This document shows positions 20,187 through 46,362 of a stretch of 64,000 bases of DNA, piece after piece. The DNA comes from Gimesia maris. Lineage in GTDB: Bacteria > Planctomycetota > Planctomycetia > Planctomycetales > Planctomycetaceae. The translations under genes and the position numbers were made by a program. The notes under the pieces are model-generated. The model saw nothing but the letters and a program-made list of their open reading frames with translations. It was not told where the DNA came from and searched no databases. Numbering within the stretch: position 1 is the first letter of the stretch; every line of letters starts with the position of its first letter. The stretch covers positions 6,200,001 through 6,264,000 of the forward strand of contig NZ_CP042910.1 in assembly GCF_008298035.1 (NCBI RefSeq). The letters run 5' to 3'.

Positions 20187-21770
20187 TCACATCACGGAAA
20201 AATAGTTTTCGACAGCAAAATCAAAGGCGCCCGGCGTCAGTTTTCGCGGGACTTCTTTGTAGACGCAGAAGTTCTTGACCTGCAGCAGCAGGTCGCGGGG
20301 CTGACAGGCACGAAACGGTCGATTGACGGCCTTATAATGAGTATCGATCAGATACTGAAATGCCTGTTCGTCGAACTGAAAACCCATCATCGGTGCCATC
20401 AATTCGAAGAGAGCCCGAAATTCTTCTTCTGAAGGATCCAGGGCTTCAATCTTGTAGGGAATCCGGCGCAGAAACGCTGCATCCACCAGATCCTTCGGCT
20501 CAAGGTTTGTCGAAAAGATAATCAGCTGGTCAAAGGGAACCTGAATCTTCTTACCGCTGGGCAGATTCAAAAAGTCATACCGTTTTTCCAGGGGTACAAT
20601 CCAGCGGTTGAGCAGTTCATCGACAGGCATGCGCTGACGTCCAAAGTCGTCAATCACAAACGTCCCGCAGTTACTTTTTAACTGCAGTGGTGCCTCGCAG
20701 ATCTTTGTCTGCGGGTTTTGAGTGATTTCCAGCTCTTTCATGGTTAACTCACCACCGGCAATCACTGTCGGGCGGACAATCTGTACCCAGCGCGGATCGA
20801 TGCCTGACAAATCAAACAGTCCCTCCGAATGATCCTCCTGAATCACCTCTTCATGCAAGCCGGGATCGAATATACGTATAATATCTCCATCGATACCCAG
20901 GCAACGGGGAATCCAGATCGTCGAACCGAAGGCTTTTGTAATCCGTTCGGCAATACTGGTTTTTCCATTGCCGGCTTCACCAAATAGAAACATCCCGCGG
21001 CCCGAATTCACGGCAGGCCCCAGCCGATCCAGCATCTTGGGATTGATAATCAGATCAGAAAAAGCCGCTTTTAAATCCGCCTCGGTCGCTTCCTGCTTGG
21101 CAATGCTCTGCATTTCCATCGCCTTCAGATAATCCTTGAAGCTCACCGGAGCAGAACCAAAGTAAGTACACTCCTGCGTGTATCGACGGGCACGTTCCCG
21201 GCCCAGTTCCGTAATGGTAAACTCGTAGTCCCCCATCTCCGCTGTACCACCGAAGGCGACCAGTTGATCCTGCTTGGCCCGCTTCAGAATGGTATCCACG
21301 ATTCCAAAGGGAAGCTTGATCTGCGCACAGATCTGACGACCGGTCTGCGTTCCTTTCGCGAGCAGATACTTCAGGATCAGACGCTCAATTTCGTCCTGGG
21401 TTAATCCGGTATCTTCCAGAGTTTCCGGACAATGCGGGATAAATTTCCCTTCGGCCTCTTCGCTGTCTCCTTTCAACAGAGACTGAACCCGGTTGAATAA
21501 CTGGCTGAGATGCTGATCTTTTCCAATGACCCGCATGGGTTCACTCACTCCCTTTGACAGGGGTAAGTGAGCAGCAACAATACTGCTTTTTGATGTTTTT
21601 TCTGTCCCTGACTCGCCGGAATCCTCATCCGAATTGAGATTCAACATACTGAGTGAAGCGAGCAGCTCTTCTGTATTGACCGCATTGGAAGCGGTACGAC
21701 CCGGTTTTCCGGAGTCACTGTTTTCCGATTTGGAATTCACTGCCACAGATTCGGAATCATTCGCTGACAT
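20187..21770 (-). CDS. AAA ATPase with N-terminal winged-helix-like domain
   Basis: 527 residues. Residues ~1-90 are Ser/Asp/Glu-rich and probably disordered. Residues ~110-190 look like a winged helix ([18 protein letters not shown] through the [22 protein letters not shown] wing). The ATPase domain has Walker [10 protein letters not shown] near residues 270-278 and a Walker B-like [10 protein letters not shown] sensor segment IIFSTNLEP follows, then FLRRIPYKI containing a likely arginine finger. The layout resembles 'predicted ATPases with chaperone activity' common in planctomycetes and near pilus or secretion genes. The substrate is unknown and no partner gene lies adjacent, since the zinc-ribbon gene is convergent. 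No signal peptide. No clear ribosome binding site at the ATG. Confidence 0.85.
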
Positions 21771-22128: not shown

Positions 22129-24102
22129 ATGTGTGGAATTGCAGGCATCATTCGTTCTGACCAGGCTTCGGTCCTTAAGTCAGAATTAAATGCCATGATT
22201 GAAACGCTGAACCATCGGGGACCTGATGCATCAGGAGTCTCGACGTGTGGGCCAGTCGGTTTCGCACACAGCCGACTAAGTATTGTCGATCTCGCCGGGG
22301 GACTGCAGCCTATGCAGACACCTGATGGCCTGCTGACAGTTACTTTTAATGGTGAGATTTTTAACCATATCGAATTGCGTGCTCAGCTCAAAAGCAAAGG
22401 ATATGAGTTTCGCACCCATTCCGATACGGAAGTCATATTGCACATGTACGCGGAATACGGCCCGGAATGTGTTCAGCACTTTAACGGGCAATGGGCCTTT
22501 GCCATCCATGACCGTAAACGCCAGGAAGTCTTCCTCTCCCGCGATCGTATGGGAATCCGCCCGCTGGTTTATACTCAGACTCAGGGTCGACTGTGTTTCG
22601 CTTCCGAAGTCAAAGCATTATTTGCACTGACTGATGTCAAACGGGAAGTGGATCTGACCGCTTTAAACGAGCTGTTCACATTCTGGTCACCCCTCCCCCC
22701 CCGAACATTTTTTGCGGGTATCAATGAACTGCCTCCGGCACACTCGATGATTGTGAAGAATGGCCAGGTCAAAATCTGGCAATACTGGCATCTCGACTAC
22801 CAGCCCAATGAAGAGAATCGGTCGCTGGATGACTGGGCAGATGAACTGCGCGATCTGTTGATCAACGCGACTCAACTCCGATTACGTGCCGATGTATCTG
22901 TCGGCGCTTACCTCAGTGGTGGACTCGATTCCTCTGTCACCGCGGCAATCATTCGCAATTACACGAATGCCCCCCTGAATACTTTTTCGCTGAATTTCAA
23001 CGACAAAGATTATGACGAAAGCAGTTACCAGCAGGAAATGATTCGCGAACTGGGAACAGATCACCAGACGGTCTGCTGCTCTTACGAAGATATCGGGCGA
23101 ATTTTCCCCACTGTCATTCAACACACAGAAAAACCGGTTCTGCGAACTGCCCCCGCTCCCATGTACCTGCTGTCCAAACTCGTTCGGGACAGTCAATTCA
23201 AGGTCGTCATGACCGGCGAAGGTGCCGACGAAGTTCTGGGGGGATACGATATTTTTAAAGAGACCAAAATCCGCCGCTTCTGGAGCCGTCAACCTGATTC
23301 GGCAATCAGGCCGCTGTTGCTGAAACGACTCTATCCATATATGAAAAATCTGCAGGCACAGTCCCCTGCTTATCTCAAGGCATTTTTCAAGATCCGTCAG
23401 GATGAAATCGACAGCCCGTTCTTTTCACATCTGCCACGCTGGGATTTGACATCGAAACTGAAAACATTCTTCAGTGATGATGTCAAACAACAACTGGTCA
23501 ATCAGAATCCCTTCACTGACTTTGAAAGCCAACTACCTGGTCAGTTCTCCGAATGGCCATCTTTCTGTCAGGCACAATACCTGGAGTCAATCAACCTGAT
23601 GCCAGGCTATATTCTCTCCTCACAGGGAGACCGTATGGCAATGGGAAATTCGATTGAAGGCCGCTTCCCGTTCCTTGATTATCGCGTTGTCGAGTTCGCA
23701 TCCCGTATCCCCGTGCGATTTAAAATGAACGGCTTGGACGAAAAATATCTGCTGAAATACGCCATGCGGGATCTGATTCCCGACAGTATCCGCAAACGCC
23801 CCAAGCAACCTTACCGCGCTCCCGATGCCCATAGTTTCATTGATACAGAGAAACAATCGGCCCGATTTGAATACGTGAACCACTTATTGTCAGCAGAGAA
23901 ACTTCAGGCAAATGGATTGTTCCAGCCAGAGGCAGTTCAACGTCTCGTCAAAAAAATCGAACAGGGACGTGCGATTGGCACGCGAGACAATATGGCATTG
24001 GTGGGAATTCTTTCAACACAGTTACTGGTCGAACAGATGATCCACGGACAGACCGTTTCTTCAAATCAGACCAGTACGGTAAATGCAACATCACTTGCAT
24101 AA
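22129..24102 (+). CDS. Glutamine-dependent asparagine synthase-like amidotransferase
   Basis: 657 residues. The N-terminal Ntn glutaminase domain starts with MCGIAGI, so Cys2 is the nucleophile after Met removal. It contains NHRGPDASG, HSRLSIVD and FNGEIFNH, all expected of class II glutaminases. The C-terminal ATP-pyrophosphatase domain carries LSGGLDSS at about residues 262-269 and TGEGADEVLGGYD further on. Glutamine supplies ammonia to an AMP-activated carboxylate. Relatives with this length and setting occur in exopolysaccharide/exosortase-type clusters rather than in asparagine biosynthesis. First gene of a five-gene series with gaps of 50, 19, 76 and 13 bases, so the acceptor is probably the acid handled by the downstream carrier protein and ligase. 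I do not assign asnB because of that context. Confidence 0.9.
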   Translation: MCGIAGIIRSDQASVLKSELNAMIETLNHRGPDASGVSTCGPVGFAHSRLSIVDLAGGLQPMQTPDGLLTVTFNGEIFNHIELRAQLKSKGYEFRTHSDTEVILHMYAEYGPECVQHFNGQWAFAIHDRKRQEVFLSRDRMGIRPLVYTQTQGRLCFASEVKALFALTDVKREVDLTALNELFTFWSPLPPRTFFAGINELPPAHSMIVKNGQVKIWQYWHLDYQPNEENRSLDDWADELRDLLINATQLRLRADVSVGAYLSGGLDSSVTAAIIRNYTNAPLNTFSLNFNDKDYDESSYQQEMIRELGTDHQTVCCSYEDIGRIFPTVIQHTEKPVLRTAPAPMYLLSKLVRDSQFKVVMTGEGADEVLGGYDIFKETKIRRFWSRQPDSAIRPLLLKRLYPYMKNLQAQSPAYLKAFFKIRQDEIDSPFFSHLPRWDLTSKLKTFFSDDVKQQLVNQNPFTDFESQLPGQFSEWPSFCQAQYLESINLMPGYILSSQGDRMAMGNSIEGRFPFLDYRVVEFASRIPVRFKMNGLDEKYLLKYAMRDLIPDSIRKRPKQPYRAPDAHSFIDTEKQSARFEYVNHLLSAEKLQANGLFQPEAVQRLVKKIEQGRAIGTRDNMALVGILSTQLLVEQMIHGQTVSSNQTSTVNATSLA

Positions 24103-24152
24103 TACAAACAGTCTTTAGATTTACTTAAAAAGATAATTTCAAAGGTAGCAAA

Positions 24153-24410
24153 ATGAACTCGATCCAAAATGACGTACGAAACTTTGTCGCGGAAAACTTC
24201 CTGTTCGGCGAAGATCCGGCTTCACTTCACAATGACGACTCGTTCCTGGAGACAGGCATCATCGATTCTACGGGCGTACTGGAACTGGTCGCTTTCATTG
24301 AAGATCACTATTCCGTCGCAGTAGATGATGATGAACTGGTCCCGGAAAATCTGGACTCCATCGACCGACTGATTACTTTTATTGAATCCAAACTCAAAGA
24401 ACTGGCTTAA
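24153..24410 (+). CDS. Acyl carrier protein
   Basis: 85 residues, acidic, with the four-helix carrier pattern. The phosphopantetheine attachment serine is Ser39 in GIIDSTGVLEL, where the motif is D-S-T instead of the fatty-acid D-S-L. It is clearly distinct from a housekeeping AcpP, being without fatty acid synthesis neighbours and sitting between an amidotransferase and an AMP-forming ligase. Expected to carry the acid activated by the next gene as a thioester in the cytoplasm. Stop codon 19 bases before the ligase start, suggesting coupled translation. Confidence 0.9.
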   Translation: MNSIQNDVRNFVAENFLFGEDPASLHNDDSFLETGIIDSTGVLELVAFIEDHYSVAVDDDELVPENLDSIDRLITFIESKLKELA

Positions 24411-24429
24411 TTTCCTGAGGAGCAGGCCC

Positions 24430-25986
24430 TTGTTGCTGCAATCATTTTTAGAAAACAGTGCGCGCGAGTATCCGGACAAAGTTGCCTTGGTCGTTGATCA
24501 GCAGCGATATACCTATCAGGATCTTGAACTGCAGAGTAATCGCCTGGCACAGGCACTCCTCCAGCGAGGACTGCAGCGCGGCGAACGTGTTGCCATTCAT
24601 CTCGATAATTCACTGGAAGCGACGGTCGCGATCTTCGCCGTATTAAAAGCGGGTGGCGTCTTTGTGATGGTCAACCCCACTACAAAGATTGATAAACTGA
24701 CCTACGTCCTGAACAACTGCAGAGCCACGACGCTGATCATTCCGAACAAAAAACAGAACCTGATCCTCGAACATGCTGCTTTGCTGCCTCATTTGAAAAC
24801 CGTCATCGCAACCGGGGCTGACTGTGATCAGCCGGAAAGTACCGAATGGCAGCTTCTGCGATATGATTCTTGGGATCAGTTGCAGAAGGAATACGCAGAT
24901 CAACTGACACCACCGGCGATTAAAACCATCAGCATCGATCTTGCTGCCCTGGTCTACACGTCGGGATCGACGGGAAATCCCAAAGGCGTTATGCTCACTC
25001 ACTTGAACATGACCTCGGCTGCCCGTTCGATAACCACTTATCTGATGAATGAACCAGCGGACATTATCTTAAATGTCCTGCCACTCTCATTCGATTATGG
25101 CCTGTACCAGTTACTGATGGCCTTCCGGGTCGGAGCAACGCTGGCGCTCGAAAAATCGTTCACGTATCCACATGCAGTACTGCAGAAAATCATCGACGAG
25201 CAGGTCACGGGATTTCCTCTCGTGCCCACCATGTCGGCGATCCTGCTCAAGATGGATCTCTCAAAGTACGATTTTTCCAACCTGCGTTACATTACTAACA
25301 CGGGAGCCGCATTACCAACCGAACATATTCTCACCTTCCGCAAACGTCTGCCACACGTTCAGATTTTCTCAATGTATGGTCTGACCGAATGCAAACGTGT
25401 TTCCTACCTTCCCCTGGATCAGGTTGATATCAGAACCGGTTCGGTCGGGATCGCCATGCCTGACTCAGAAGTCTTTATCGTTGATGATGCAGGTCACCGC
25501 CTGCCAGCGGAACAGACAGGCGAACTGGTCGTCCGCGGTGCTAATGTCATGCTTGGCTACTGGGAAGCACCTGAACGCACAGCAGAACGATTAAAGCCAG
25601 GCGAACTGCCGGGCGAAATGTATCTCTATACCGGCGACCTGTTTCGCATGGACAGGGAAGGTTACCTGTACTTTGTCGGAAGACGTGACGACATCATTAA
25701 AAGTCGAGGGGAGAAAGTCAGTCCCAAGGAAGTGGAAAACGTCCTGTTCGCACACCCGGCAATTTCCGAAGCGGCCATTATAGGAGATCCTGACCCGATT
25801 CTCGGCCAGTCGATTCGCGCCATTGTAACTGTGATGCCCGAACAGGAACTCACAGAGAAAGCAGTCATCGCTTACTGTCGCAAACACCTGGAGGATTTCA
25901 TGGTACCCCAGAAGGTGGAATTCAGGGATGAACTGCCAAAATCCCCCAATGGGAAAGTCGATAAAAAACAGCTGGTTCTTCCCTGA
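24430..25986 (+). CDS. AMP-forming acyl/aminoacyl ligase paired with a carrier protein
   Basis: 518 residues of the ANL superfamily. Core motifs: the phosphate loop VYTSGSTGNPKGVMLTH, MYGLTECKR (A5), YTGDLFRMDREGYL (A7), FVGRRDDIIKSRGEKVSP (A8) and the catalytic lysine in SPNGKVDKKQLV near the C-terminus. It adenylates a carboxylic acid and most likely transfers it to the neighbouring carrier protein. The overall pattern resembles the exosortase-A-associated ligases (TIGR03098 type), though no exosortase is present in this window. The start is TTG at 24430, or the adjacent TTG at 24433, following AGGAG at 24418-24422. The upstream in-frame ATG at 24382 lies inside the carrier gene and has no ribosome binding site. 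Confidence 0.9.
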   Translation: MLLQSFLENSAREYPDKVALVVDQQRYTYQDLELQSNRLAQALLQRGLQRGERVAIHLDNSLEATVAIFAVLKAGGVFVMVNPTTKIDKLTYVLNNCRATTLIIPNKKQNLILEHAALLPHLKTVIATGADCDQPESTEWQLLRYDSWDQLQKEYADQLTPPAIKTISIDLAALVYTSGSTGNPKGVMLTHLNMTSAARSITTYLMNEPADIILNVLPLSFDYGLYQLLMAFRVGATLALEKSFTYPHAVLQKIIDEQVTGFPLVPTMSAILLKMDLSKYDFSNLRYITNTGAALPTEHILTFRKRLPHVQIFSMYGLTECKRVSYLPLDQVDIRTGSVGIAMPDSEVFIVDDAGHRLPAEQTGELVVRGANVMLGYWEAPERTAERLKPGELPGEMYLYTGDLFRMDREGYLYFVGRRDDIIKSRGEKVSPKEVENVLFAHPAISEAAIIGDPDPILGQSIRAIVTVMPEQELTEKAVIAYCRKHLEDFMVPQKVEFRDELPKSPNGKVDKKQLVLP

Positions 25987-26062
25987 AACAGAGCTCACAA
26001 CCCACACGGAAACTTTGAATCGCACTCACGCGATAAGCATTACTCACGAGGATCGCAACACT

Positions 26063-27046
26063 ATGATTACACAAACCAGAACCTTCAAACCGGAATTACT
26101 GAATCTGGACTGCGCAGCGGAAACAGAGCGTATTGTCAGCTGGATGCAGGAAACCGTTCGCAAGACAATGCGAAAAAAAGGTGCCGTGCTGGGACTCTCT
26201 GGAGGTATCGACAGCAGCGTTGTAACGGCGCTCTGTGTGCGGGCCTTTGGTGCAGATCGTGTTCTGGGAATCATGATGCCCGAACACGATACGAAGGACG
26301 AAAGTTTAACCTTCGGCCAGTTGCTGGCAGATCATTTCAATGTGGAAGCCATCGTGGAGAACATCTCTCCCATGTTGCAGGGCGCGGGTTGCTATGAACG
26401 CCGCGACGTCGCTATCAAGCAGGTGATCCCGGAATACGAGCCTCACTGGAAATCGAAAATTGTACTGCCCAACCTGCTGAAAGAGGGGGGGTACCGTGTC
26501 TTTTCAGTCGTCGTGCAGACCCCTGAAGGCGAATTCATCAAAAAACGTCTGCCTCTCTCTGCCTACCAGACGATTGTCGCAGCGACAAACTTTAAACAAC
26601 GCTGTCGTAAGATGATGGAATACTACCACGCCGACCGATTGAACTACGCGGTTCCCGGCACTCCCAATCGCCTCGAATACGATCAGGGATTCTTCGTTAA
26701 AAACGGCGATGGTGCAGCAGACCTGAAACCGATCGCCCACCTGTATAAATCGCAGGTCTATCAACTCGCTGAGTATCTCGATGTACCGGAAGTCATTCGG
26801 ATGCGTCCACCAACCACAGACACTTATTCGCTGGAACAGTCCCAGGAAGAATTCTTCTTTGCAGTTTCATACGACAAACTCGACTGCTGCCTGTACGGTT
26901 TGAATAACGGTTATACTGCAGAGGAGACCGCCGCAGGTACCGGTCTGCCAGCCGAACAGGTTGCTCTGGTCTACGGCGATATCGAATCGAAACGCAAAGC
27001 AGGCCATTACCTGCATCTGCCGCCCCAGCTGATTGAATCCGTCTGA
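26063..27046 (+). CDS. NAD-synthase-like ATP-dependent amidase (NadE family, variant)
   Basis: 327 residues. The N-terminal ATP-pyrophosphatase loop LSGGIDSS is at residues ~45-52, and NadE-like blocks follow (FVKNGDGAADLKPIAHLYKSQVYQLAEYL, a PPTTDTY segment and SYDKLD). Two departures from classical NadE are visible. The GTGNKSE substrate loop is replaced by GTPNRLEYDQG. An insertion of roughly 40-50 residues rich in aromatic and basic residues sits between the second and third blocks (GCYERRD through GEFIKKRLP). It therefore may amidate a substrate other than deamido-NAD. There is no glutaminase domain, so ammonia could come from the operon's own amidotransferase. ATG at 26063 with ACGAGGA upstream. 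A longer reading from 25928 would overlap the ligase and is not supported. Confidence 0.85.
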   Translation: MITQTRTFKPELLNLDCAAETERIVSWMQETVRKTMRKKGAVLGLSGGIDSSVVTALCVRAFGADRVLGIMMPEHDTKDESLTFGQLLADHFNVEAIVENISPMLQGAGCYERRDVAIKQVIPEYEPHWKSKIVLPNLLKEGGYRVFSVVVQTPEGEFIKKRLPLSAYQTIVAATNFKQRCRKMMEYYHADRLNYAVPGTPNRLEYDQGFFVKNGDGAADLKPIAHLYKSQVYQLAEYLDVPEVIRMRPPTTDTYSLEQSQEEFFFAVSYDKLDCCLYGLNNGYTAEETAAGTGLPAEQVALVYGDIESKRKAGHYLHLPPQLIESV

Positions 27047-27059
27047 GTGACACTTGAAA

Positions 27060-28121
27060 ATGAAGCTGTATCGCCAGATTAGAAATCGTCTGAAAGGAAC
27101 CCGCCTTGTGAGTAAAAAAGAACTGCTGGCCAAAGCGCTCGACTGGACCGGAATGAATCTGCTGGCTCGTAACGTCTCCGTCTGGAATGGTTTGCTGGTG
27201 TTGAATTACCACCGCGTTGGTGACATCAACAACTCAGTGTTCGATCATGATCTATGGAGTGCCTCTGCAGAAGATTTCGAAAAGCAGATTCGATTTCTCA
27301 GCCTGAATTTCGACATGATCCGTATCCGGGATCTGGATCATATCTGGAATCAGCCACGAGGACGGTATGTGCTGGTGACCTTCGATGATGGTTACCTTGA
27401 TAATTATGAATGGGCTTTCCCCATAATCAAATCTTACAACGCTCCTGCGACGTTCTTCCTCACAACTGCTTTTCTGGATGATCGAAAAGTAGCCTGGTGG
27501 GATGAAATTTCCTGGATGGTCCGCAGCGCCACGCGACAGCTGATTCAGACCAATGAATTGACGGGGGACAGTCTGTCTCTTCATCCGGATGAGTGCGAGC
27601 AATCGATTAAAATCCTCTTGAGCAGATTCAAAAAACTGAGCGGAGATCAGACAGAGAATTTTCTGAACTTTCTGGCCGAAGCGACCGGCGCAGGTCGCTG
27701 TCCGCAGGAAATCGCCGATTACGTCTGGATGACCTGGGATATGATTCGCGAAATGAGCACAGCCGGCATGGACATCGGCGGCCATACAGTCACCCACCCG
27801 ATTCTGTCACGGCACTCTCCTGAGATTCAACAGTTTGAAATCGAACACTGTAAACAACGGATCGAAACTGAAATCGGACAGGAGATTACCAGTTTCAGCT
27901 ACCCGGTCGGCGGTAAAGACTGCTTTAACCAGCATACCCGGGACTGTCTGAAGCAGGCCGGATTCCGTTGGGGCTTCAGCTACTACGGCGGATTTGCTCC
28001 TCTCGAAAAACCCGATCCGTGGGACCTGCCTCGAATCGCTGTGGAATCCGAAGAACCTGCCTCACTGTTTCGATCTTCGGTTTCAATCCCACAGGTCTTC
28101 AGCAGCAAAAAGTGTACATAA
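27060..28121 (+). CDS. Polysaccharide deacetylase (NodB homology domain)
   Basis: About 353 residues. NodB catalytic motifs are present: motif 1 TFDDGY (about residues 107-112, with the paired aspartates), motif 2 GGHTVTHP (about residues 240-247, the zinc-binding histidines) and a later FSYPVGG (motif 3-like). Such enzymes remove N- or O-acetyl groups from glycans. No signal peptide or transmembrane segment is evident, so it may act on a cytoplasmic, lipid-linked or carrier-linked intermediate rather than on a mature polymer. It is the last gene of the amide/carrier operon, 13 bases after the NAD-synthase-like gene. A TTG two codons upstream (27054) is an alternative start. Confidence 0.88.
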   Translation: MKLYRQIRNRLKGTRLVSKKELLAKALDWTGMNLLARNVSVWNGLLVLNYHRVGDINNSVFDHDLWSASAEDFEKQIRFLSLNFDMIRIRDLDHIWNQPRGRYVLVTFDDGYLDNYEWAFPIIKSYNAPATFFLTTAFLDDRKVAWWDEISWMVRSATRQLIQTNELTGDSLSLHPDECEQSIKILLSRFKKLSGDQTENFLNFLAEATGAGRCPQEIADYVWMTWDMIREMSTAGMDIGGHTVTHPILSRHSPEIQQFEIEHCKQRIETEIGQEITSFSYPVGGKDCFNQHTRDCLKQAGFRWGFSYYGGFAPLEKPDPWDLPRIAVESEEPASLFRSSVSIPQVFSSKKCT

Positions 28122-43796: not shown

Positions 43797-44076
43797 TTGG
43801 GGAGAGAGTCAACTTACAATTCATCCACTCGTTCACCGATCATTTTGATTTTTCTGAAGATATTTCTGTCGAATTCGGTGGATTACTGCGGTGGGCTTCC
43901 GTTTTAAATCATTGAGACTCTCTTAGGATAACCCGCTGTCTTGGGAAATCCGGTTGATCAACTCTTTTGTAGGGCGGGCCTTCGTCATTACAAAATCAAC
44001 CACGCGTCTGGTGGCTTATGTCGCTCAGTTCGAAAGAACTGCGCGCCAGCAACTGCACGCTTCAGGAGAACACATC

Positions 44077-46362
44077 ATGCTATTCCCAAAATCACATCGC
44101 CGTCAGGCATCACATAAAGCATCTCATTCTTCCGCCATTGAACATCTGGAATACCGACAACTGCTGTCAGCCATGAATTCCCTCCCCACTGAGATGGCAG
44201 ACACAAACGTTCCCCAGACAGAGTCCGGGACCACACCCGAATATGCGTCGATCGACGGGACCGGAAATAACGTCGACAACCCGGAATACGGCAGTACTGA
44301 TACAGAACTGTTGCGTCTGGCTGACGCAGACTACGGCGACGGCCAGTACACACCAGCCGGGGAAGACCGACCCAGTGCTCGCGAAATCAGCAATGTCATC
44401 GCTGCCGCGGACACATCACAAACTAATGACCGTTACCTGACTGATATCTTCTGGGTCTGGGGCCAGTTTATCGATCATGATATCACTCTCACCGAGTCCG
44501 CGCACGATGAATTCGGTAATCCACTCCAATCATATCCGATCGAAGTCCCGACCGGTGACATCTATTTCGATCCAGACGGCTCAGGCGATGACGTAATCGA
44601 CTTGAACCGTTCCAACTACGAGGTAGACGAAAACGGCGTTCGGCAGCAGATCAATCAGATTACGGCGTTCATCGATGGTTCGGTGATCTATGGTTCGGAT
44701 GCGGAACTGGCCGCCAGTTTGAGAACATTTCAGGGAGGACTGCTGGCAACCAGCGATGGGAACCTGCTCCCCTATGGAGATGACGGTTTCTTTCTGGCCG
44801 GCGACATTCGCGCCAACGAAAACGCCGCATTGACGTCGATGCAGACCATCTGGATGCGGGAGCATAATCGTGTTGCCACCGAACTGGCGCTGGAAGATCC
44901 AAGTCTGACTGACGAACAACTCTATCAACAGGCGCGGCAGATCGTTTCGGCTGAAATACAGGCGATTACCTTCAATGAATTCCTGCCTGCCTTGTTCGGC
45001 TCCAATATCATCAGCAGCTACCAGGGCTACGATTCCACCGTCGATCCGAGTATCGCCAATGAGTTCTCTACCGCCGCCTATCGCTTCGGGCATACCATGC
45101 TGTCGTCCGAACTCCTGCGGCTCGATGAGAACGGGAACACCGCTGACGAAGGTAATCTTGCGCTCTTAGATGCCTTCTTCAACCCGAGCGAAGTCGAAAA
45201 CAATGGCGTCGATTCCCTGTTACGCGGGCTCACCGTCAACCTGGCCCAGGAAATCGATAACCAGGTCGTCGACGATGTACGCAACTTCCTGTTTGGCCCT
45301 CCCGGATCAGGCGGCTTTGATCTGGCCTCGCTCAATATCCAGCGGGGTCGCGACCATGGCCTCTCGGATTACAACTCAACACGGGTTGCCCTGGGTCTGA
45401 ATGCCGTGGAGAACTTCTCCGACATCACTTCCGATCCGGACGTCGCTGCTCGTCTGGAACAACTTTACGGCACCGTTGACAACATCGATCTCTGGGTGGG
45501 CGGCCTCGCTGAAGATCATATGCCGGGATCGAGCATGGGTGTGACTTTTTCAATGATCATTATCGATCAGTTCCAGCGACTCCGCGATGGAGATCGCTTC
45601 TGGTATGAAAACGTGTTTTCCGGTGAAGCATTGAATGAAATCAACAATACGACACTCGCAGATGTCATCGAACGTAACTCGGATGTCTCCGGGCTGCAGG
45701 AAAACGTCTTCTTTGCCCCAACGGTGATGCAAATTGACCTGGCAGAGACTGGTACCACGAACGTCACCATTAGTGCAAAAAAAGGGATTCTGCAAGTTGT
45801 CGACCAAAGAACAAAGCAGGTACTCGGCAGTCAGCCTCTGGACAACGTCGAACGTTTGATGCTGACGAGCCCCAGCCCCGGTTCGCTGCACATCAACTTC
45901 AAAGGCATTAAGCCGGCAGATCTGCCCGGTGGCCTGATCGTTGAAGCAGGCAAAGGACGCGACGACGCATTGGTCATCCACGGCACACAGCAGAGTGATA
46001 CGATCGTCGTGAATGAAAATGTGGTTGAAGTCAACAATCTGCCAGTCGATTTCACAGGCGTCGAACGGATTGTGATTCAGCACACGGACGCGAATGACAC
46101 GGTTTCCGTCGCTGACGATGTCGACATCGATGTCAACGTGCTGGACATGGTACGACGCGACTCCAGGCATGATGGACCTCCCGGCAGAGAGCAGCCACCA
46201 CACCAGAACAATCATCGCCCGTCGCAAGGACCAGACCGGCAGAGAGCAAACGAGCGAGATGCCGGAAAAGACCGCGACGACTTCGGCATGCTGGACGCGG
46301 TCTTTGCCTCTTCCGACCTGGGAAAAGTGTTAGATATGTCACCCGGGAAACGCCGTCGGTAG
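44077..46362 (+). CDS. Animal-type haem peroxidase with LEPR-XLL-like N-terminal motif
   Basis: 761 residues. ATG at 44077 with AGGAGA upstream. The N-terminus ends in IEHLEYRQLLSA, a degenerate LEPR-XLL motif typical of large exported planctomycete proteins. The peroxidase domain follows: distal histidine in WGQFIDHDITLT (about residue 134), MQTIWMREHNRVATELA, proximal histidine in AYRFGHTMLSSELL (about residue 338) and the NIQRGRDHGLSDYN block. These are landmarks of the peroxidasin/LPO superfamily, which oxidises halides or phenolics with H2O2. The last ~200 residues are a beta-rich region with repeated SADDRVxV-like strands and a disordered His/Arg/Pro-rich tail. Extracellular or surface location inferred. 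A longer frame upstream has no ribosome binding site. Confidence 0.9.
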   Translation: MLFPKSHRRQASHKASHSSAIEHLEYRQLLSAMNSLPTEMADTNVPQTESGTTPEYASIDGTGNNVDNPEYGSTDTELLRLADADYGDGQYTPAGEDRPSAREISNVIAAADTSQTNDRYLTDIFWVWGQFIDHDITLTESAHDEFGNPLQSYPIEVPTGDIYFDPDGSGDDVIDLNRSNYEVDENGVRQQINQITAFIDGSVIYGSDAELAASLRTFQGGLLATSDGNLLPYGDDGFFLAGDIRANENAALTSMQTIWMREHNRVATELALEDPSLTDEQLYQQARQIVSAEIQAITFNEFLPALFGSNIISSYQGYDSTVDPSIANEFSTAAYRFGHTMLSSELLRLDENGNTADEGNLALLDAFFNPSEVENNGVDSLLRGLTVNLAQEIDNQVVDDVRNFLFGPPGSGGFDLASLNIQRGRDHGLSDYNSTRVALGLNAVENFSDITSDPDVAARLEQLYGTVDNIDLWVGGLAEDHMPGSSMGVTFSMIIIDQFQRLRDGDRFWYENVFSGEALNEINNTTLADVIERNSDVSGLQENVFFAPTVMQIDLAETGTTNVTISAKKGILQVVDQRTKQVLGSQPLDNVERLMLTSPSPGSLHINFKGIKPADLPGGLIVEAGKGRDDALVIHGTQQSDTIVVNENVVEVNNLPVDFTGVERIVIQHTDANDTVSVADDVDIDVNVLDMVRRDSRHDGPPGREQPPHQNNHRPSQGPDRQRANERDAGKDRDDFGMLDAVFASSDLGKVLDMSPGKRRR

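Follow-up and report, generated by a model that had tools for sequence, protein, structure and literature searches.

The operon in Gimesia maris

The window analysed here is a stretch of 64,000 nucleotides from the 7.8 Mb genome of the planctomycete Gimesia maris (contig NZ_CP042910.1; G000:C1:6200001-6264000 in our numbering). We examined five co-directional genes on its + strand, at window positions 22129-28121, which encode a glutamine-dependent amidotransferase, an acyl carrier protein (ACP), an AMP-forming ligase, a protein resembling NAD synthetase (NadE) and a polysaccharide deacetylase. A preliminary description of this DNA had presented them as five tightly packed genes of one pathway, and the packing is borne out by the open reading frame (ORF) coordinates and the sequence, with intergenic gaps of 50, 19, 76 and 13 bases counted from starts at 22129, 24153, 24430 (a TTG behind GAGGAG), 26063 and 27060. 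Promoter and terminator scans gave weak or shuffle-level results (11 against 6.8, standard deviation 2.1; 6 against 6.2).

Pfam and NCBIfam matches agreed with the family names previously given to all five proteins. The first gene (22129..24102, +) encodes an AsnB-type glutamine-dependent amidotransferase of 657 amino acids, hereafter AsnB, matching Asn_synthase (300 bits) and GATase_7 (156 bits). Its Cys2 nucleophile and SGGLDSS ATP loop are intact; Cys2 is conserved in 59 of 61 aligned rows (one serine, one gap) and the loop, as S-G-G-x-D-S, in all 61. The ACP (24153..24410, +; 85 amino acids) passed the PP-binding cut-off of 20.8 with 25 bits, and its phosphopantetheine serine, within GIIDSTG (codon 24267-24269), is conserved in 60/60 aligned rows, which supports the earlier idea of a carrier-based logic. 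The ligase (24430..25986, +) comprises 518 amino acids from the TTG start, with an open frame that extends to 24382, and matches AMP-binding (314 bits) and AMP-binding_C (77 bits). It is followed by the NadE-like protein (26063..27046, +; 327 amino acids; open frame extending to 25928), a predicted amide synthetase of the PRK00876 subfamily (499 bits, cut-off 313) that also matches NAD_synthase (171 bits). The last gene (27060..28121, +; ATG at 27060, open frame extending to 27054) encodes a polysaccharide deacetylase of the NodB/CE4 type, in which TFDDG and HTVTH motifs are present and which gives a 90-bit match to Polysacc_deac_1.

Conservation of four genes as a unit

Using the NadE-like protein as the only query against the genome_contigs collection (84,980 species), we obtained 70 loci, and we scored partners within 6 kb at thresholds of at least 300 bits for AsnB, 50 bits for the ACP and 190 bits for the ligase. 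All three partners were present in 50 of the 70 loci; a further 13 had two and 3 had one, so that at least one partner accompanied the NadE-like gene in 66, and 4 loci had none. As controls we took the surroundings of 20 canonical NadE genes, two of which belong to the Gimesia genome and the remaining 18 to as many other genomes bearing the NadE-like gene, covering about 5-6 kb per side (four stretches were 8 kb or shorter); AsnB, ACP or ligase partners were found in none of them (0/20). The preliminary description had proposed such a survey and had regarded scattering of the genes in relatives as the result that would speak against a pathway; what we observed was a conserved unit.

According to the database records the 70 loci belong to about ten phyla: Planctomycetota, Verrucomicrobia, Acidobacteria, Myxococcota and other 'Deltaproteobacteria', Gemmatimonadota, Actinobacteria, Pseudomonadota, Bacteroidota and Spirochaetes. 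Metagenome bins make up most of them; among the isolates are Tessaracoccus, Catellatospora, Sorangium, Anaeromyxobacter and Citreicoccus. Gene calling in these loci was heuristic and weighted by homology, plain longest-ORF calling having failed in the GC-rich ones. All four genes share a strand in 40 of the 50 complete loci, and their order is scrambled among phyla, so the linkage reflects more than recent descent. NadE-like and AsnB genes are co-stranded in every one of the 60 stretches, the window among them, where both occur, and stand 25 bp or less apart in 20 of these; an ACP of one family occurs in 52 of 71 stretches (window included). Pairwise distances between the proteins were correlated, with rho values of 0.63 for NadE-AsnB, 0.47 for NadE-ACP, 0.43 for AsnB-ACP, 0.37 for NadE-ligase, 0.32 for ligase-ACP and 0.30 for AsnB-ligase; none of the six was reached in 500 permutations, in a test that omits five near-identical Gimesia loci and retains the effect of host relatedness. 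Together with the Gimesia neighbourhoods described below, these data leave us highly confident that AsnB, the ACP, the ligase and the NadE-like protein, hereafter the module, belong to one pathway, as the preliminary description had supposed.

Several loci had features of their own. Tandem pairs of ligase genes stand beside the NadE-like gene at L018:6589-9829 and L026:6783-10034. An ornithine/aspartate carbamoyltransferase-like protein is encoded near the NadE-like gene in L053 (upstream; family assigned) and, by similarity, in L039, L040, L044 and L020, and in the Sorangium loci directly before it. The partnerless NadE-like gene at L109:7587-8573 adjoins an IF2-like gene (read from the sequence, with no family search), and that at L067:3555-4550 adjoins genes for a PpiC-type rotamase and a nucleotidyltransferase; both genomes also contain a canonical NadE.

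Distribution in the genus, the phylum and on plasmids

The closest named locus was a Gimesia bin, 97% identical in the NadE-like protein. Within the genus, 14 of 17 genomes (our own included) exceeded the PRK00876 cut-off and two had fragments; the NadE-like gene was absent from genome G044, which is 99% complete. We fetched neighbourhoods from 12 of the 13 other genomes over the cut-off, and all five genes were present in 12/12, the AsnB gene of L123 being truncated where its contig begins (L123 and L124 duplicate the contigs of L007 and L006). Across the phylum, the NadE-like protein was detected at an E value of 1e-70 or better in 11 of 244 genomes, 6 of them Gimesia; three of the five others had all four genes, one had three and one the NadE-like gene only. 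Such patchiness is as expected for a transferred unit, as judged from gene presence in these genomes.

A plasmid collection yielded 116 matching records, mostly from Sinorhizobium (76), Azospirillum (12), Ensifer (9), Shinella (8) and Mesorhizobium (7). We opened seven plasmid regions; AsnB, ACP, ligase and NadE-like genes adjoin one another in 5/5 annotated regions, in the order of the window in four. In the unannotated regions, S. chiapasense has all four genes, and in that of S. meliloti the ACP was missed by the ORF search. Strain 1021 of S. meliloti carries its NadE-like match on NC_003078.

The NadE-like protein

The fourth protein scores well above the TIGR00552 cut-off (160 against 63.65 bits) and is labelled NAD(+) synthase by NCBI and in the plasmid annotation, as would be expected if it were an ordinary NAD synthase grouped with the other genes through shared ammonia metabolism. 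Its ATP loop, S.G.DS, is retained in 68/68 rows that reach the site (two gaps), with serine as the second residue in one row. The best solved match of its AlphaFold2 model (predicted local distance difference test score, pLDDT, 89.5) in Foldseek was the NadE 2e18, with a template modelling score of 0.67 by query and 0.84 by target. The two matched stretches are separated by 69 residues, against 16 in 2e18, and the roughly 50 extra residues form a family-specific insert (residues ~108-164; 26384..26554, +), conserved across 22 relatives and modelled with a helix at 110-119 and strands at 130-134, 147-152 and 158-163. A motif on the substrate side (residues 250-266; 26810..26860, +) is likewise altered: PTTDT...Q.Q[ED]EF is near-invariant in 70 rows, where two solved NadE proteins have PSAGLW..QTDEDE[LM]G. 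Insert and motif together may reflect a changed second substrate.

The preliminary description had held that its pathway would fall if this protein proved to be the genome's only NadE. We found two further NadE genes in the Gimesia genome (frames of 567 and 665 amino acids). Of 32 genomes selected among those of the 70 loci, 31 likewise had another NadE (the exception, G015 with locus L036, is a metagenome bin), as did 6/6 further genomes with the NadE-like gene. In view of these additional copies, the insert and altered motif, and the lack of the module's partners around canonical NadE genes (0/20), we disfavour NAD synthesis as the role of the gene and consider it extremely unlikely that the protein is an ordinary NAD synthase. 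Among 14 control genomes, only that of the archaeon Methanosarcina acetivorans passed the PRK00876 cut-off.

Surface-glycan genes and candidate tailoring enzymes

The preliminary description had linked the operon to a glycan, which for the Gimesia window itself is a guess, and the relatives bear the link out in part: polysaccharide genes stand beside the module in some of them and not in others. In S. chiapasense the module is accompanied by genes for a GNAT-like protein, a methyltransferase, Wzx, Wzz, Wzy_C, a polysaccharide deacetylase and a glycosyltransferase. In Azospirillum thermophilum a sugar transferase, an O-antigen ligase, glycosyltransferases and a polysaccharide deacetylase precede the module and a GNAT gene, and glycosyltransferases lie close to the module in the Shinella and Roseateles regions. 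A homologue of Wzx, an EpsZ-type protein or a family-2 glycosyltransferase was found within 6 kb in at least 16 of the 70 loci and at least 1 of the 20 controls, both counts being lower bounds from single-sequence searches. Over the 70 whole stretches, searches of the same kind returned as recurrent neighbours hexapeptide acyltransferases (18), SGNH hydrolase-like proteins (13, with a Pfam match under its cut-off), Wzx (8), EpsZ-type proteins (8) and holo-ACP synthases (5). The holo-ACP synthase-like genes lie near the module in L033, L038, L043, L045 and L071, as if the carrier had its own activating enzyme.

A candidate for the transfer step is a GNAT protein of 337-408 amino acids whose gene directly follows the NadE-like gene in 11 planctomycete loci. 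It has a weak match to PF13527 and a predicted double-GNAT fold (AlphaFold2 pLDDT 83) with structural matches to Eis-like proteins and N-myristoyltransferase. A profile of the planctomycete proteins finds the Azospirillum GNAT at 4e-27; in a profile built with that protein included, it scores together with the rhizobial ones. Set directly against one rhizobial protein, the planctomycete profile produced no match, and the connection between the planctomycete and rhizobial proteins is therefore made through the Azospirillum protein. No GNAT homologue occurred in the 20 controls.

A HemK/PrmC-family methyltransferase with an NPPY motif was encoded in 9 of 95 scanned stretches (L025, L027, L050, L069, L072 and L125-L128) and in none of the 20 controls. 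Its gene lies between the ligase and ACP genes in L025, L027, L050 and L069, and 10-12 kb away in L125 and L127, both S. meliloti. All five of the proteins tested passed TIGR00536 and one passed TIGR03534. Known HemK/PrmC members methylate glutamine side-chain amides, and by analogy these neighbours indirectly suggest that the module's product bears a carboxamide.

Elsewhere in the window, a divergent ATPase-like gene lies upstream of the operon (20187-21770, -), with a weak match to the IteA anti-phage ATPase (25.5 bits, cut-off 510), and an animal-type haem peroxidase (PF03098, 566 bits) is encoded at 43954-46362 (+).

Proposed mechanism

We tentatively propose that the operon represents a mobile module making a carboxamide-bearing acyl group for a surface polysaccharide. 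The ligase would adenylate a carboxylic acid, possibly an amino or dicarboxylic acid, and load it on the ACP; AsnB, with ammonia from glutamine, and the NadE-like enzyme, which would be an amide synthetase driven by ATP and taken over from NAD synthesis, would form the amide bond or bonds; the NodB-type enzyme would deacetylate the amine of an N-acetylated amino sugar; and a transferase of the GNAT type would pass the completed acyl group from its carrier to this amine. We infer the substrates, the order of the steps, the transfer itself and the identity of the transferase in Gimesia, where an unlinked homologue exists. That the module serves a surface glycan of some kind we regard as likely, and the amide group it builds probably decorates surface sugars.

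A number of observations weigh against parts of this scheme. The deacetylase is the least conserved component outside Gimesia (10/70 loci by similarity to the window's protein), so that the five-gene unit described earlier holds for Gimesia and planctomycetes and the widely kept unit is one of four genes. The ligase co-varies with the NadE-like protein least of all its partners and lies on the opposite strand in several loci. Several of the incomplete loci stop at a contig edge, and L046, L047, L057-L059 and L067 do not: the ACP was not detected in the Acidobacteria loci L047, L057, L058 and L059, neither ACP nor ligase was detected in L046, and the NadE-like gene lacks partners in L067 as in L109. 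An aspartate of the amino-acid type is present in the FDxG motif of only 31 of 65 module ligases; we therefore dropped a reading of the ligase as amino-acid specific, and the acid may differ among bacteria. The Gimesia GNAT homologue (C1:6763436-6764491) is unlinked and, by ORF reading, lies among unrelated genes. Homologues occur in 17/17 genus genomes, even in the module-free G044, a distribution that weakens the claim that this protein serves the module in Gimesia. Nor does the Gimesia operon have an adjoining glycosyltransferase or other transferase. In agreement with the preliminary description, no glycosyltransferase or thioesterase was present among the 19 window proteins run against Pfam (the five operon proteins included; the window has 37 ORFs of at least 260 amino acids). 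None of the three tested glycan families (Wzx, EpsZ-type, family-2 glycosyltransferase) was found within 6 kb in 54 of the 70 loci, the 25-kb region of Mesorhizobium ciceri has no annotated polysaccharide gene, and the annotated S. meliloti region has one lipopolysaccharide gene only, about 12 kb away.

These 54 loci would fit a product that is a secreted small molecule or an amino lipid, with the polysaccharide neighbours incidental. Also in keeping with such a product, the closest named family of the ACP is the ornithine-lipid ACP (68 of 130 bits, below the cut-off), the closest solved relative of AsnB is the hydroxyamidotransferase 7ylz, and the closest PDB relatives of the ligase are peptide-synthetase adenylation domains. 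There is a planctomycete precedent in the N-acyl tyrosines, for whose cluster PMC7293339 proposes a connection with exopolysaccharide genes. Neighbours of the Wzx, Wzy, Wzz or EpsZ type nevertheless recur in unrelated phyla at a frequency above the controls, and we judge a product of this kind to be improbable.

Our literature search, in which subscription papers fell mostly outside the coverage, found no description of the four-gene unit. We conclude, with due reserve, that it may be an undescribed, horizontally spread unit in which an enzyme recruited from NAD synthesis and AsnB build a carboxamide (which a PrmC-type enzyme would N-methylate in some bacteria) on a carrier-bound acid for surface polysaccharides, in planctomycetes, myxobacteria, actinobacteria, Bacteroidota and nodulating rhizobia. 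The scheme supplies a testable function for a conserved NadE paralogue labelled NAD(+) synthase, for example on Sinorhizobium megaplasmids, and predicts amide chemistry on bacterial surface sugars. Since the four genes occur in experimentally tractable bacteria, this chemistry can be sought directly. It also carries a warning that reconstructions of NAD pathways may count the wrong gene as NadE.

Comparison with known systems

The nearest experimentally studied analogue of the module is the Wbp/Vim linking-sugar pathway of Porphyromonas and Tannerella. As described in the available part of PMC7468200, deletion of the AsnB homologue in Porphyromonas led to loss of the uronamide, the NodB/CE4-type VimE is a putative deacetylase, and VimA, a putative N-acetyltransferase, adds serine or glycine to a sugar amine, exchange of VimA having turned serine to glycine. 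An AsnB-type amidase and a NodB/CE4-type deacetylase are both present in the Gimesia operon (by family and motif rather than by sequence comparison with WbpS or VimE), and both systems may share a GNAT-type step that passes a small acyl group onto a freed sugar amine, the GNAT being linked to the module in the 11 planctomycete loci and Azospirillum and unlinked in Gimesia. The ACP, the loading ligase and the NadE-like enzyme are features of the module and do not figure in the account of Wbp/Vim in that part of PMC7468200.

This resemblance raises a different division of labour, in which AsnB and the NadE-like enzyme would amidate the uronic acids of nucleotide sugars to uronamides and the ligase and ACP would separately ready an acyl or aminoacyl group for the amine of the same sugar. 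NadE, too, naturally acts on a nucleotide-linked carboxylate. The co-variation between NadE-like protein and AsnB is the tightest of all, against 0.32 for ligase and ACP; the deacetylase and GNAT-type transferase are as in Vim, and the AsnB homologues WbpS and PGN_1234 make uronamides according to the available parts of PMC7468200 and PMC3684757. On the other side, two amidases would be redundant for uronamides, an ACP of one family accompanies 52 of the 71 stretches, and no uronic-acid or Wbp sugar genes were seen among the 19 scanned window proteins, with no genome search for Wbp families made. We hold such a split to be possible, if rather unlikely.

The carrier-bound amide scheme that we prefer has a second analogue in the XrtA/PEP-CTERM exosortase systems, with which the module shares a polysaccharide context in part of its relatives. 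The preliminary description had called the ligase and the amidotransferase exosortase-associated versions: the resemblance stands, TIGR03098 and TIGR03108 being their nearest special families, and membership does not, at 498 bits against a cut-off of 592 for the ligase and 420 against 817 for AsnB. The module might then be a remnant or relative of an exosortase set making a sugar that sorted proteins join; an exosortase gene directly follows the ligase gene in L056, and PMC7468200 raises the speculative idea that sugars of this sort are produced in exosortase bacteria possessing TIGR03108 amidotransferases. However, four AsnB and four ligase proteins were tested and none reached the XrtA cut-offs, a single-sequence search, which can miss some, turned up an exosortase-like protein in 2 of the 70 loci, one of them weakly, and the module has the added NadE-like enzyme. 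The absence of an exosortase noted earlier for the window extends to the whole Gimesia genome, in which PF09721 is not found, and we reject an exosortase system for that genome; for the module at large we think this origin very unlikely. By analogy, the module may work in the manner of the Wbp/Vim or XrtA-type systems, and we do not file it as a member of either.

Likenesses to other systems are more limited. With NH3-dependent NadE the fourth protein has the fold and ATP loop in common, and it differs in its insert, its changed motif, its occurrence as an extra copy beside canonical NadE and its fixed partners. The N-acetylglutaminylglutamine amide pathway also employs an AsnB-type amidase on a small molecule; its partners differ from those of the module, and the window AsnB is below the TIGR03104 cut-off (401 of 570 bits). 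In D-alanylation, DltA and DltC are, as in the module, a ligase and a small carrier protein that feed a surface polymer, whereas no counterpart of DltB or DltD was present among the scanned window proteins and the module has two amide synthetases. Against this background we rate the recruited NadE-like enzyme as the new element, and the module as otherwise of a known kind, that of surface-glycan decoration based on a carrier protein and an amidase.

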